Shown: positions 51,884 to 56,989 of the stretch, piece after piece
Position numbering within the stretch: the stretch's first letter is position 1
Layout: the number at the start of each line of letters is the position of its first letter
Assembly: GCA_027063305.1 (NCBI GenBank)
Contig: JAMORY010000028.1
Span: forward strand, 1-64,000
DNA: 64,000 nt
Direction of reading: 5' to 3'
Source of the DNA: Sulfurovum sp.
Lineage (GTDB): Bacteria; Campylobacterota; Campylobacteria; Campylobacterales; Sulfurovaceae
Program-made: the position numbers and the translations under genes
The notes under the pieces: model-generated
What the model was told of the DNA's origin: nothing
What the model saw: only the letters and a program-made list of their open reading frames with translations
Databases searched by the model: none

Positions 51884-52663
51884 CTATTGGTCAACAGAGT
51901 GATCGCATTGATAGTTATCTCTTTGTTGTGGCATATACCGGTTAAGTTGTAGTTGTGCTACTGAAAGATAGGGGCTAGAAGAGAGATATCTGTTTATCGT
52001 ATTGGTCTCATATATGAATTTTTGAAGGTAGTACCTACTTAACACCTCTGTTGCTTGTGTATCTTTTAAAAGTTTTTCCGGTTCGATAGCAAAAGGAGTA
52101 CACTCTCCGTAGTAGTTGACACTCTCCCCTATCTGTTCGAAATACGCATGTTGTCTGCGAAGCAGGCGTGCAAGGGTCTGTTCCATAATAGCATAGATCA
52201 TCTTTAACGGGTAGATTTGTGCAGTGATCCGTGTGCCTATCATCAGAAGTAGTGAGAGGTGAGTTCTGACCCAAAGTGCAGATCTTTTCGAGTGCAAAGG
52301 AAGGCCTCTACTAAGTGCAAAGCGAGATATCTCACATACGGGTAGCAGTGACGGGTCTCTTTGAATATGGGTATAGTGTTCCATCGGTAAGGTTTGTATG
52401 GGGGTTTTGCAATTAATATAAAAAACCCTAATAGTACCTACATACCGTTGGGTTTGCTGATGTTGAATAAGAAAAATAAATGATTGTTCATCGCTTTTAT
52501 CCCATGCGAACTGCTCTTCATCTTCAATTGTTGCAAAGTTACGGTATTTGCTAAGAAGTACCTCTTTACGTAAGCTTTTAACCGCATCGAACTCTTCAGG
52601 CTCTGTAGCCAATATGAGCCGATATTCTTTTGTTAGCAGATCAAAAGCGGTAGAGTCGAGCAA
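51884..52663 (-). CDS. LuxI/FeeM-like N-acyltransferase (acyl-signal synthase fold)
   Basis: 259-aa GNAT-type acyltransferase resembling the PEP-CTERM/exosortase-associated acyltransferase and N-acyl amino acid synthase (FeeM) group, which shares its core with LuxI. LuxI-type invariant positions are visible: R32, W54, D58, R79 (in GTIRVFY) and E111-I-S-R114-F115. An extra helical C-terminal part (about 130-259) makes it longer than LuxI. No exosortase or LuxR gene is present. Divergent to the receptor/c-di-GMP operon at 52771. It would acylate an amine from acyl-ACP; product unknown. Confidence 0.75.
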   Translation of the reverse strand: MLDSTAFDLLTKEYRLILATEPEEFDAVKSLRKEVLLSKYRNFATIEDEEQFAWDKSDEQSFIFLIQHQQTQRYVGTIRVFYINCKTPIQTLPMEHYTHIQRDPSLLPVCEISRFALSRGLPLHSKRSALWVRTHLSLLLMIGTRITAQIYPLKMIYAIMEQTLARLLRRQHAYFEQIGESVNYYGECTPFAIEPEKLLKDTQATEVLSRYYLQKFIYETNTINRYLSSSPYLSVAQLQLNRYMPQQRDNYQCDHSVDQ

Positions 52664-52716
52664 AATAAATCCTTTTTTAGTCGGAAAGAAGATGAATTTA
52701 AAATAAATTGTGTAGA

Positions 52717-52722
52717 ATTATA
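52717..52722 (-). promoter_or_regulatory. -10 box for the acyltransferase gene
   Basis: TATAAT on the minus strand (CTATAATTC) in the 107-bp divergent gap; a weaker TATTAT at about 52730 may serve the plus-strand receptor operon. Confidence 0.4.
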
Positions 52723-52770
52723 GTTGAAATATTATAAAAACTTATTGATGTGGAAAAAGAGAGGTGCAGT

Positions 52771-54651
52771 GTGTTAAGTTGGAGAGGGGTACTGTTATCA
52801 TTATTATTGTTTACATCAATTCTCAATGCAGAAAATATTGACCAGCTTTTAAGTGAATATAACCAAAATAATGATCTAAGTCGTCAGACGATCGATGAGA
52901 ATAAAGGACACTTGGTACTCTTTACCCGAGAAAAGCTTGAGCGGATGCATGCTAAAACGCTAAAAGATGTGATGAAGTACACGCCGATCATCTACTATCA
53001 TGAAAGTAGATATGCACTGCCTGACCCATTGACTTCCGGTATTTTCGAACCTTATCGCAGTAATTTCATCAGAATTTTTATCGATGGAGTGGAAATAACG
53101 CAAGGATGGTTAGGAAGCGGTGTTGTGCTGTATGGTGATATGAATATCAATTTTGCCGACCATATTGAGTTTTACTATATGACCCCCTCTTTTGATACAT
53201 CGGTAGAGCCGGCATATTTGACGATATTTATCTACTCTAAAACTCCGGAACGGGACAGTGGTGTCTCCTTAGACCTGATGGCGGGGAGCAGGGGCTATAA
53301 TGTAGAGAGTTTCAATTATGGAAAAGAGCATAACAATGTTTCATATATGCTCAATGTCTCCCATACTTTGGAGGAGCGGGAACGTGTCGATAATGGTACG
53401 GATGATCCACTCAAACGTGATTTTGAAAGAGTTCAGGTCTTTGGGTATATAAAGAATGAAAAACACTCTTTTCATCTTCAAATCATGCAAAAAAACACGG
53501 ATGCACTTGCCGGTTTGAGTTTTGATGCCACACCTCTAACATCAGAGATCGATTATCAGAACATACATATGGACTATCAGACTAAATTGAATGCATACTG
53601 GAAAGCACAGTTTTCCTATGATCAACTAACAACAGATACGCTTATGGTAGATGATGAGTCGCTACTGTATGTCGGTAGTCTATTTGGTAACAGCTATTCG
53701 GGAAGCAGTAAGAACAGTACCTATAGTGCCGAGTTGACCTATATTAATCAATTTGGAAAGCATCGTGTAACAGGAGGCGTAAAAGAGCGGATAAAAGTTT
53801 TGGATTCGTTTAAAGAGGATGGTGTCGGTGAAATTCCCAAAGTATTCGACAAAGAGGCGATATTCTCACTTTTTCTACAGGACCAATATGCACTTTCCCA
53901 ACGTGAACTGTTAAGTCTGGGCATAGAGTATAGCTATATTGACCGTAACAAAGGAGTCTCCTCTGATGATCTACTGCAGTTACGGATTGGCTACCTGTAC
54001 CATGGCGACAAATGGCGTTATAAAGCCTACCTGTATCAGTCAATGTTTGCACTTGATCCTTTCTCTTATAGTCTCGATCTCTCGTGTACAAAAAATGTGG
54101 ATACTGATTATAATCGTGTACAGACAACCTATGGTATTACCCAAGAGTTACGTTATAAAGAGAAAAAACATGATCTTGCACTGATGTTTTATCTGCTAAA
54201 GGATCAAGATGGGCTCTTGGTCAACAGTAAGGATGAAGATACCAAGTATCTCTCAACAGTATTGCAGTACGGATATATGTTCGATCTAAAAAATAGAATG
54301 GATATACAGTTGTATTATGCACACTATTCAGATATATTCGAACTAAGTTCACTTGATGATTATAGCGGTTATATATCATTGATGAACGCCTATGGCACGT
54401 TTGAGTTCTATAATGCGGTCGTATGGCATCAAAACAGTGTAGATAATAAAAACTACTTCGATCTGACATCCTCTGTCTCTTGGAATATCAGTGAAGATCT
54501 TACCTTTACTATCAGAGGTGAAAATATACTGGATAAAGCGAAAGAAACGAATCTGTACCGTATGGATCCTGAAACCGGAGAGATGATGGTACCGCTTAAG
54601 GTATCTCCTGTAGATAGACGTATCGTTTTTGAGCTGGAGTATCAACTATGA
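52771..54651 (+). CDS. TonB-receptor-like outer-membrane protein (plug plus barrel)
   Basis: 626-aa outer-membrane receptor. A signal peptide (GVLLSLLLFTSILNA) leads into a short N-terminal segment (IDQLLSEYNQNNDLS), a plug domain (about 45-140: LFTREKLERMHAKTLKDVMKY, IRIFIDGVEI) and a large barrel of alternating strands. A clear TonB box is not seen. The GTG at 52771 has AGAGG six bases upstream and is preferred over the in-frame GTG at 52750. First gene of a three-gene operon with overlapping junctions; it is probably a signal or nutrient receptor feeding the sensor enzyme downstream (inference). Confidence 0.8.
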   Translation: MLSWRGVLLSLLLFTSILNAENIDQLLSEYNQNNDLSRQTIDENKGHLVLFTREKLERMHAKTLKDVMKYTPIIYYHESRYALPDPLTSGIFEPYRSNFIRIFIDGVEITQGWLGSGVVLYGDMNINFADHIEFYYMTPSFDTSVEPAYLTIFIYSKTPERDSGVSLDLMAGSRGYNVESFNYGKEHNNVSYMLNVSHTLEERERVDNGTDDPLKRDFERVQVFGYIKNEKHSFHLQIMQKNTDALAGLSFDATPLTSEIDYQNIHMDYQTKLNAYWKAQFSYDQLTTDTLMVDDESLLYVGSLFGNSYSGSSKNSTYSAELTYINQFGKHRVTGGVKERIKVLDSFKEDGVGEIPKVFDKEAIFSLFLQDQYALSQRELLSLGIEYSYIDRNKGVSSDDLLQLRIGYLYHGDKWRYKAYLYQSMFALDPFSYSLDLSCTKNVDTDYNRVQTTYGITQELRYKEKKHDLALMFYLLKDQDGLLVNSKDEDTKYLSTVLQYGYMFDLKNRMDIQLYYAHYSDIFELSSLDDYSGYISLMNAYGTFEFYNAVVWHQNSVDNKNYFDLTSSVSWNISEDLTFTIRGENILDKAKETNLYRMDPETGEMMVPLKVSPVDRRIVFELEYQL

Positions 54652-55097
54652 AAAAGATACTAGTACTTCTTGTCTTGCTTTACGGACATCTTTTTGCTTT
54701 GGAGAAAGGAAGTACACTCAAAATCTATCATGAGATATTCATGTCTGCTCTGCATAAAGAGAAGATAAAGGTCTACACAAGTGCGAAAGAGTTAAAAGAA
54801 GTATTTAGAACCTCTCATAAGATCATATTGGTAAATACCCCCGACCTGGCGGATATTGTGGTGGTAGATACGGATAGAAGTTATCAGGATATATTAAAAC
54901 AGATGGATATACGGCAACAGAAGAAAATCCCTTTTTTTGCAACGCACTATCAGGTTCTTGCCGCATATGATAATGTGATAGGTGCTCTTTACTGGAAGAA
55001 GGGGCGTTCTCAGCTTCTTTTTGTAAAGCCTAGGCTTGAACGCTTCGGTATCACACTCTCTTCTGAGTATAAACCTTTTATTGTGGATGAATTATGA
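54648..55097 (+). CDS. small periplasmic protein, function unknown
   Basis: 149-aa secreted protein. Signal peptide KKILVLLVLLYGHLFA, then a mixed alpha/beta sequence (KVYTSAKELKEVF, KIILVNTPDLADIVVVDTD, FFATHYQVLAAYDNVIGALYWKKGRSQLLFV as regions) resembling half of a type 2 periplasmic binding domain. No Cys. It overlaps both the receptor and the GGDEF/EAL gene by ATGA junctions. It occupies the same slot as the small periplasmic protein at 22235-22621. Confidence 0.7.
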   Translation: MKKILVLLVLLYGHLFALEKGSTLKIYHEIFMSALHKEKIKVYTSAKELKEVFRTSHKIILVNTPDLADIVVVDTDRSYQDILKQMDIRQQKKIPFFATHYQVLAAYDNVIGALYWKKGRSQLLFVKPRLERFGITLSSEYKPFIVDEL

Positions 55098-56989
55098 AGT
55101 TGAGATACATAAACAAGTATATTCTTCTTATTTTGTTATTACTGCTTAGTTTTGGCGTCTATATGCAGTGGAGTGTCTCGGAGAGTACCCGTCAGTTAAA
55201 GAACGATGAGATAGAAAAGTCCAAACAGTATGCGGCTAACATTGCAGCGTGGATCATGAAAAAGAGTAAAGGAGAGATCGAGTCTACGCTTAGATCCGAC
55301 CCAACGCTTCAAAAAGAGCTTAGTGAGATGCTTGAGACTTTTGTTATTCCCAAGTATGCATATATTTTTCTACTCAAACAAACCCCTAAAGGACATTACC
55401 GTTTTTTACTCGATGGTTCCAAAGCCGAAGAGAAAGAGCGTTTTGGAACACTTTTTTTCCCTCAAAACAAGCAGTTTGACGAGGTCTATAAGCGTGGTCA
55501 AGTAAAGATCATCAAGCAAGAGGATGATGTAAAGGGGGTATGGCTTTCGCTCTTATATCCTTTACGCAAAGAGAATAGAACACAAGCCCTTTTGGTACTG
55601 GATCTTTCAAAGTGGTACGGAAAGAGTCTTGAGTCATATAATTCACCGCTACAGAGCCTACTGTGGTTAATGCAGATATTTTTACTCTTTAGTTTTATAT
55701 TCCTCTCCGTTATTTTTTATCGATATTATCAGTTTAGAAAAAGTATATTGACCGATCGATTGACCGGTGCACAAACGAAGCGATATCTTGAAGAGTTTTT
55801 CTTAAGTCGTAAAATGCATGATTATCATGCTTTGATCGTTGATATAGACGAATTTAAAGAGGTAAATCGGAATTTTGGATATGAAAGTGGAGATGAAGTA
55901 TTAAAAGAGTTCGTCAGAACTTTGGCGCAACAACTTCCCAAAGAGAGTGTGATCATCCGTACGGGGGGTGCGGAGTTCAGTCTGTTCTTCCCTAAACAAT
56001 ACACTTTGGAAGAGATTGCTCAAAAGCTTTTTATCCATATGCGTCAAAAACGTTATCTTGTTAAGAACCATGTGATCCAAATGAATATTTCTATTACCGG
56101 AATGGAGATCCCTCCTGAGACAAAAGATATTCAGCATGTATTACGGATATTGGATGAGGAGATGCTCAAGGTCAAAAGTCAAGGGAAGAACAGTATCGCT
56201 TTAGTGGATCTACAGAGTGATCAAGAGATAAAGTACAGACAGATCGACTATATTAAAAGGGCTCTGGAAGAGGAGCGTTTGGTCTGTTTGTATCAGCCGA
56301 TCTTCAAAACAAAGACAGGAGAGATCAAAAAGTATGAAGTTTTGGTACGCCTTGTTGACGAAGAGGACACTTCTGTTCTGATCCCTCCGGGACGTTTCCT
56401 GTCTGCGATCAAAGGAACAAGTTATTATATCAAGATGAGCAAACTGGTGCTAAGTCAGGTATTTAGGGTACTTGAAGCTTATCCTGATATCGAACTTTCC
56501 GTTAATTTGGATCTTGATGATCTGCACAATATGGATATGATGCAGATGATCATGGATTACCTCTCTAAAAACCGTGCTTATGCCGGACGTTTGACATTTG
56601 AGATCCTTGAAGAGAATGAGATCAGAGATTATAGTAGAGCGAACTTTATCTTTACGCAGCTTAAAGCATATGGATCCAAGATCGCTATTGATGACTTTGG
56701 TAGCGGATACTCTAACTACAATTATTTGATACAGCTTGATATTGATATTTTAAAAATTGATGGAAGCTTGATCAAAGAGTTGCGTACAACACCCAAAAGA
56801 GCAGAGGTTGTGATCTCTTCGATCAAACTATTGGCAGAAACTTTCGGCTATGAACTGGTTGCGGAGTTTGTTGCCAATGAAACGGTCTACGAAGCGGTCA
56901 AAGCACTGGAAATAGATTACGTACAAGGGCATTACCTTGGTGAACCCAAGCCTATTGAGGCGTATTTGGAACAAACCAATTTGTATTAA
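55094..56989 (+). CDS. membrane c-di-GMP phosphodiesterase (degenerate GGDEF plus EAL)
   Basis: 631-aa sensor. Transmembrane helix 1 (about 7-26) and helix 2 (about 191-212) flank a periplasmic sensor domain of about 160 aa. The GGDEF domain has GGAEF (about 290), so cyclase activity is doubtful. The EAL domain has EVL in KYEVLVRL (about 413-420) and keeps the other catalytic residues: N in SVNLDLDDL, E in FEILEENEI, DD in IDDFGSGYSN, K in LKIDGSLI, E in LVAEFV and Q in VQGHYLGEP. It probably degrades c-di-GMP in response to the two upstream proteins. Confidence 0.87.
   Translation: MKLRYINKYILLILLLLLSFGVYMQWSVSESTRQLKNDEIEKSKQYAANIAAWIMKKSKGEIESTLRSDPTLQKELSEMLETFVIPKYAYIFLLKQTPKGHYRFLLDGSKAEEKERFGTLFFPQNKQFDEVYKRGQVKIIKQEDDVKGVWLSLLYPLRKENRTQALLVLDLSKWYGKSLESYNSPLQSLLWLMQIFLLFSFIFLSVIFYRYYQFRKSILTDRLTGAQTKRYLEEFFLSRKMHDYHALIVDIDEFKEVNRNFGYESGDEVLKEFVRTLAQQLPKESVIIRTGGAEFSLFFPKQYTLEEIAQKLFIHMRQKRYLVKNHVIQMNISITGMEIPPETKDIQHVLRILDEEMLKVKSQGKNSIALVDLQSDQEIKYRQIDYIKRALEEERLVCLYQPIFKTKTGEIKKYEVLVRLVDEEDTSVLIPPGRFLSAIKGTSYYIKMSKLVLSQVFRVLEAYPDIELSVNLDLDDLHNMDMMQMIMDYLSKNRAYAGRLTFEILEENEIRDYSRANFIFTQLKAYGSKIAIDDFGSGYSNYNYLIQLDIDILKIDGSLIKELRTTPKRAEVVISSIKLLAETFGYELVAEFVANETVYEAVKALEIDYVQGHYLGEPKPIEAYLEQTNLY

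Follow-up and report, generated by a model that had tools for sequence, protein, structure and literature searches.

Organization of the Locus

The window analyzed here is a stretch of 64,000 nucleotides of Sulfurovum sp. DNA. Within it an acyltransferase gene lies divergent to three others, which encode an outer-membrane barrel, a small secreted protein, and a membrane-bound enzyme of c-di-GMP turnover, and the question is whether the acyltransferase makes a signal that its neighbors read. The locus has the following features.

51884-52663, minus strand: LuxI/FeeM-fold acyltransferase (NAS-like, 259 amino acids), putative N-acyl signal synthase; TIGR03694 match below cut-off, fold matches, Glu-111 invariant
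52664-52770, no strand: divergent intergenic region of 107 bp between the synthase and receptor genes; from the sequence and an alignment of relatives
52771-54651, plus strand: TonB-type plug-barrel outer-membrane protein, putative receptor, 626 amino acids from GTG 52771; Plug and TonB barrel profiles match in relatives
54648-55097, plus strand: small secreted protein of 149 amino acids, predicted to fold like YfiR, which may be a relay or repressor in the periplasm; from the predicted model, Foldseek, and VIA
55094-56989, plus strand: membrane enzyme with an N-terminal membrane-flanked sensor region, a degenerate GGDEF domain (GGAEF), and an intact EAL domain; from profile matches

Re-reading of the sequence reproduced the four genes, strands, and ends given in a preliminary description of the locus, and both of the ATGA overlaps reported there are real (54648-54651 and 55094-55097). 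A start of the barrel gene at GTG 52771, where the Shine-Dalgarno sequence is better (AGAGAGG), gives the stated gap of 107 bp; the longest open reading frame starts mechanically at 52750 and would leave a gap of 86 bp. The promoters of the synthase and receptor genes presumably both lie within the divergent gap. There, the alignment of relatives revealed -10-like boxes in both directions in many sequences, poorly kept in the window, and TTTGACATTTTT repeats in some relatives. No regulator palindrome was seen in the gap in the alignment of the window with its relatives.

The Acyltransferase

TIGR03694 is the best named family of the acyltransferase, with a score of 87.6 bits (E = 8e-25). The curated cut-off of 111.95 bits was reached by no acyltransferase among the 175 genomes of the family searched. 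Acetyltransf_5 and Autoind_synth were weak profile matches, the latter (PF00765) at 16.4 bits, below its cut-off of 24 bits. The PF21926 profile gave no match to the window enzyme at E = 1, a search of its own genome with PF13444 returned nothing at E = 0.001, and a PDB sequence search with the synthase (NAS) profile gave nothing convincing.

The predicted model of the enzyme (pLDDT 88) had FeeM as its nearest structure, with a Z-score of 16.6 over 176 aligned residues at 3.0 Å, and Foldseek was concordant. Next came AHL synthases with Z-scores of 15.0-15.8 (RpaI at 15.8 and LasI at 15.4, together with BjaI and TofI). One ordinary GNAT was among the top matches (5jph, Z-score 15.2); other GNATs scored 13.7 or less. 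Several residues had been listed in the preliminary description as LuxI/FeeM-type positions. Arg-32, Asp-58, Arg-79, Glu-111, Ser-113, and Arg-114 proved invariant in 25 relatives, and Trp-54 and Phe-115 were found only in the window's own subclade. In its predicted model and across the 25 relatives, the enzyme shows the FeeM fold together with an invariant acidic residue within the E-x-S-R motif. Glu-111 is the putative catalytic glutamate and, judged from this motif context rather than from an alignment, probably the same residue as in FeeM-type enzymes.

Three close relatives carry mosaic synthases (L042:10654-11481, L054:8704-9528, and L055:9872-10708) in which blocks along the length range from 45 to 100% identity, suggesting recombination in the catalytic region. 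The idea of synthase allele types matched by receptor changes was rejected: the synthases of these three loci are 70-77% identical and their barrels 83-87% identical, and the barrels ignore the synthase type.

The Putative Receptor and Relay Proteins and the EAL Enzyme

Profiles and alignments confirmed the operon, which we refer to as the triad; its products are a plug-barrel protein of the outer membrane, a small secreted protein, and a degenerate GGDEF-EAL enzyme. The TonB Plug profile matched all 22 barrel relatives (best E = 2.5e-6) and the TonB barrel model matched 7 of the 22 (best E = 6.3e-10); the window's own copy scored below the curated cut-off, and its plug and β-barrel are assigned through these relatives. 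No clear TonB box was seen by eye in the barrel, and PDB sequence searches with the PERI and OMP profiles gave nothing convincing.

The predicted model of the 149-residue protein (pLDDT 90) matched YfiR structures with a Foldseek probability of 1.00, and comparison with YfiR (PDB 4xjy and 4zhu) gave a VIA Z-score of 9.7 over 128 aligned residues at 3.4 Å. Periplasmic-binding-protein domains scored similarly, so the YfiR assignment holds at the level of the fold only. At the sequence level, none of the 24 small proteins of this Sulfurovum set, which we call class A, matched PF13689 (YfiR/HmsC-like), nor did the 149-residue protein have a convincing match to any Pfam family.

The membrane enzyme matched the EAL profile with E = 1.5e-54 and the GGDEF profile with E = 3.3e-21. 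All EAL catalytic positions (E415xL, Arg-419, Asn-471, Glu-503, Asp-533-Asp-534, Lys-554, Glu-591, and Gln-611) are invariant in 20 of 20 sequences. The GGDEF motif is degenerate, reading GGAEF in the window and having Ala, Thr, Ser, or Gly at the third position in 19 of the 20.

Linkage within Sulfurovum

The 175 genomes of the family were searched, and co-occurrence was counted in the 78 that belong to Sulfurovum. Synthase and receptor were both present in 27, the receptor only in 3, and neither in 48. The synthase was never found without the receptor (Fisher p = 6e-18). Four genomes with barrels merely 24-31% identical were scored as lacking the class A receptor in these counts. The linkage of acyltransferase and triad, which the preliminary description had singled out for checking, is thus kept beyond this genome, and the divergent arrangement is the same in essentially every Sulfurovum genome in which the enzyme is present and the contig is continuous at this place.

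Two of the receptor-only genomes (G085 and G132) have the locus interrupted by contig ends. In the third (G081, L072:8027-10302) the synthase is lost, and an inversion of about 950 bp breaks the barrel and relay genes. Either the whole circuit is decaying in G081 or the contig is misassembled; the inverted repeats at the inversion, of 8 bp only, are uninformative. The class A site is fixed (mraW-ftsL-[RND]-synthase<>triad-DUF2018-ispA-hemA), and because the linkage occurs at this single chromosomal position, plain inheritance could explain it.

A Second Set of the Same Design

Distant GNAT matches led to a second, sequence-distinct set, class B, which is a co-directional operon of a GNAT, a TonB receptor, a secreted protein of ~180 amino acids, and a HAMP-GGDEF-EAL enzyme, in that order. 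In a survey of 397 genomes of the phylum, after which the loci were read, 29 linked loci were found in 5 families of the order and in 9 chromosomal contexts (L058, L102, L103, L106, L138-L151, L153, L155, L157-L159, L161-L165, and L167). Six more GNATs of the class B profile are not next to a receptor. The number of barrel-profile matches was one to nine per genome in the genomes tested, from which we estimate that a given gene would adjoin a barrel by chance in ~1% of cases. In genus g66 the EAL gene is divergent from the GNAT-receptor-relay genes, showing that gene order has changed while the linkage was kept. In family f4 (L150 and L158) the class B operon adjoins mraW-ftsL-RND, which is the site of class A in Sulfurovum.

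The synthases of classes A and B are distant relatives by profile (hhalign 95%), and likewise the barrels. Of the class B secreted proteins, 7 of 25 matched PF13689 (best E = 9.8e-6). Homology between the periplasmic proteins of the two classes was considered and rejected, as the PERI_A and PERI_B profiles aligned over the signal peptide alone and had no detectable sequence similarity.

Two class B loci have a degraded synthase directly before an intact triad (L166:6874-9172 in G393 and L176:7066-9351 in G291), and genome G650 has a triad without a synthase. The strains with degraded synthases are possibly signal-blind or eavesdropping.

FeeM-type Synthases beside Histidine Kinases

A third set, class C, consists of GNATs that do match the FeeM profile (PF21926). 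They adjoin a 7TMR-DISM histidine kinase and a response regulator in 18 of 18 loci (L059-L064, L066, L067, L104, L107, L168-L171, L173-L175, and L177). The acyl synthases of the phylum are thus repeatedly paired with membrane receptors of unrelated design. The pairing in class C recalls LuxM-LuxN.

Two Units and a Possible Order of Assembly

Covariation was computed from pairwise distances at 16 loci, with each gene pair corrected for all other genes. Synthase-receptor distances covaried with a partial r of 0.48 (p = 0.0005) and relay-EAL distances with a partial r of 0.74 (p = 0.0002); the value for synthase and relay was -0.08. By these values the locus falls into two units, synthase-receptor and relay-EAL. 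We grade the covariation in the first as suggestive; without the window's subclade it was 0.22 (p = 0.049).

The same units are seen in evolution, where parts of the set occur by themselves. Genus g11 has two-gene units of a YfiR-fold-family protein and a GGDEF-EAL enzyme with neither barrel nor synthase in all 6 loci read (L193-L198). Genus g5 has barrel, relay, and EAL genes and no synthase. A combination of barrel, relay, and histidine kinase occurs in other genus members, and Sulfurovum has the full set. The synthase looks like a later addition to an older sensor, and the triad like a general sensor that gained synthases. Since the triad exists without a synthase in g5, and with a degraded or absent one in G081, G291, G393, and G650, it is not exclusively a receiver of a self-made signal.

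LuxR and Exosortase Genes

The absence of LuxR from the window, recorded in the preliminary description, holds for the entire genome, in which no LuxR-type autoinducer-binding domain was found. For exosortases the recorded absence is true of the window only; elsewhere in the genome, on another contig, there is one exosortase-like gene. An association of the acyltransferase with a distant exosortase locus was tested across the 78 Sulfurovum genomes, and none was found: 15 of the 27 genomes with the synthase carry an exosortase-like gene, as do 25 of the 51 others (p = 0.64).

The exosortase-like protein of this genome (168 amino acids; contig C29, L179:6543-13228) adjoins a 2023-residue secreted Sdr-like open reading frame, and the two are probably a dedicated sorting pair.

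Proposed Mechanism and Alternatives

We favor, with moderate confidence, a circuit in which an N-acyl signal is sensed by the barrel and relayed via the YfiR-like protein to the c-di-GMP phosphodiesterase. The acyltransferase would take a fatty acyl group from its carrier, either ACP or CoA, and attach it to an amine. An amino acid is the probable acceptor and homoserine lactone a less likely one. The N-acyl product would leave the cell and be recognized by the divergently encoded barrel. Ligand binding would alter the engagement of the YfiR-like periplasmic protein by the barrel, and this protein would in turn control the GGDEF-EAL enzyme through its periplasmic domain and hence set its phosphodiesterase activity. 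By analogy with YfiR and YfiN, repression would be the role of the small protein, and the signal would free the phosphodiesterase so that c-di-GMP falls; this direction is the weakest step of the mechanism. Gene anatomy, conserved linkage, intact EAL residues, and fold predictions are the observed parts of the scheme; we infer the product, its export, ligand binding, the relay, and the sign of the c-di-GMP change.

The preliminary description had proposed a quorum-type circuit of this kind. Its proposal is supported in part: it agrees with the conserved linkage and with the lack of a tie to exosortases, and it gains support that lay beyond its sight from the YfiR fold of the small protein and from the independent classes B and C. 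Against a signal stand the triads, or relay-EAL cores, without any synthase, which may respond to another ligand. Likewise, the mosaic synthase changes have no counterpart in the barrel, and PERI_A and PERI_B are dissimilar.

The main alternative, which we consider unlikely, is that the product is a structural or surface-active N-acyl lipid (a biosurfactant or aminolipid of the matrix or membrane) and not a ligand. The triad would then read the state of the envelope or surface and tune c-di-GMP alongside lipid output, the genes being inherited together through a biofilm life. NAS enzymes characterized so far yield N-acyltyrosine surfactants (PMC4897644), stieleriacines have been connected with clusters for biofilm and exopolysaccharide (PMC7293339), and the occurrence of the triad without a synthase is also in keeping with such a lipid. 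Nevertheless, the repeated pairing with three unrelated receptor designs, including plain two-component kinases, fits a signal better, and there is linkage to neither exopolysaccharide nor exosortase genes.

Distinctly less probable is that the genes are neighbors only, sharing a site and a divergent promoter region, with the barrel being a receptor for a nutrient or metal that controls c-di-GMP according to whether it is occupied. Siderophore and vitamin receptors are among the TonB-type barrels, and the single fixed site in the genus, between mraW-ftsL and ispA-hemA, would suit this explanation. However, the presence and absence of synthase and receptor are coupled across the genus, and the class B association recurs in 9 contexts with gene order differing in one genus. 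It is very improbable that the acyltransferase belongs to a PEP-CTERM/exosortase pathway and stands beside the triad incidentally. TIGR03694 is its best named family and the genome does have one exosortase-like gene, but the TIGR03694 score is below the cut-off in each of the 175 genomes searched, the absent co-occurrence weakens the connection, and the exosortase-like gene lies on its other contig next to a large secreted open reading frame of its own.

Comparison with Known Systems

The locus shares with YfiBNR (TpbB/YfiR/YfiB) and HmsCDE the plan of an outer-membrane partner, a small YfiR-fold regulator, and an inner-membrane c-di-GMP enzyme in one operon. Here, however, a TonB-type plug-barrel protein replaces the YfiB/HmsE lipoprotein, a phosphodiesterase with a degenerate GGDEF domain replaces the cyclase, and an acyl synthase is attached. 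FeeM, Nas354, and the exosortase-linked TIGR03694 group have in common with our enzyme the GNAT fold, the glutamate of E-x-S-R, and likely acyl transfer to an amine; they differ in that an envelope receptor set, rather than exosortase/PEP-CTERM genes, adjoins the Sulfurovum enzyme, which scores below the TIGR03694 cut-off. The synthase fold is also that of LuxI/LuxR systems (LasI, TofI, RpaI, and BjaI were among the top matches), whereas the genome has no LuxR-type receptor and the Autoind_synth score is below cut-off. In LuxM-LuxN and AinS-AinR, as proposed here, an acyl-type signal is read by a membrane receptor, and in the DSF system (RpfF-RpfC/RpfG) a fatty-acid-derived signal lowers c-di-GMP through a phosphodiesterase. 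Those synthases, RpfF included, are of other families, and their signals are received by inner-membrane or cytoplasmic proteins, in contrast to the outer-membrane reception proposed here.

In the literature consulted, luxS/AI-2 is the sole form of quorum sensing described for vent Epsilonproteobacteria (PMC2628731, PMC8056087) and for Campylobacterota generally. A literature search of limited coverage found no such system described, whether the topic was acyl-type signaling in Campylobacterota, YfiR in combination with TonB receptors, or the sensing of acyl signals at outer-membrane receptors. The parts are of known kinds, and we could not find their combination, or outer-membrane reception, described in the literature searched. 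Our results suggest that Sulfurovum and many other Campylobacterota have a form of communication, probably by a fatty-acid-based signal, whose reception lies at the cell envelope and does not involve a LuxR-type protein. We give even chances to the broader proposal that Campylobacterota employ acyl-signal systems with envelope receptors that were assembled separately at least three times. Two of these would combine a barrel, a YfiR-like relay, and a phosphodiesterase, their parts being strongly diverged or unrelated, and one would rely on 7TMR-DISM kinases.

If the favored mechanism is true, a TonB-type barrel acts as a signal receptor and feeds c-di-GMP turnover directly from the outer membrane, a form of quorum reception that the literature searched does not describe. 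It would provide an acyl-signal receptor for bacteria with acyl synthases and without LuxR, and a testable biofilm or dispersal switch in the Campylobacterota that live at hydrothermal vents and in sulfidic water. It would also offer a role for NAS-type enzymes, the physiological function of which has been termed unclear (PMC4897644).

A leucine-carboxyl-methyltransferase-like gene (PF04072) is the immediate neighbor of some unlinked GNATs (L154:7755-9283, L156:6957-8424, and L172:5920-7750). Such pairs could be a route to an N-acyl amino acid methyl ester. The FeeM-type enzyme of L172 carries a fused cyclic-nucleotide-binding domain.
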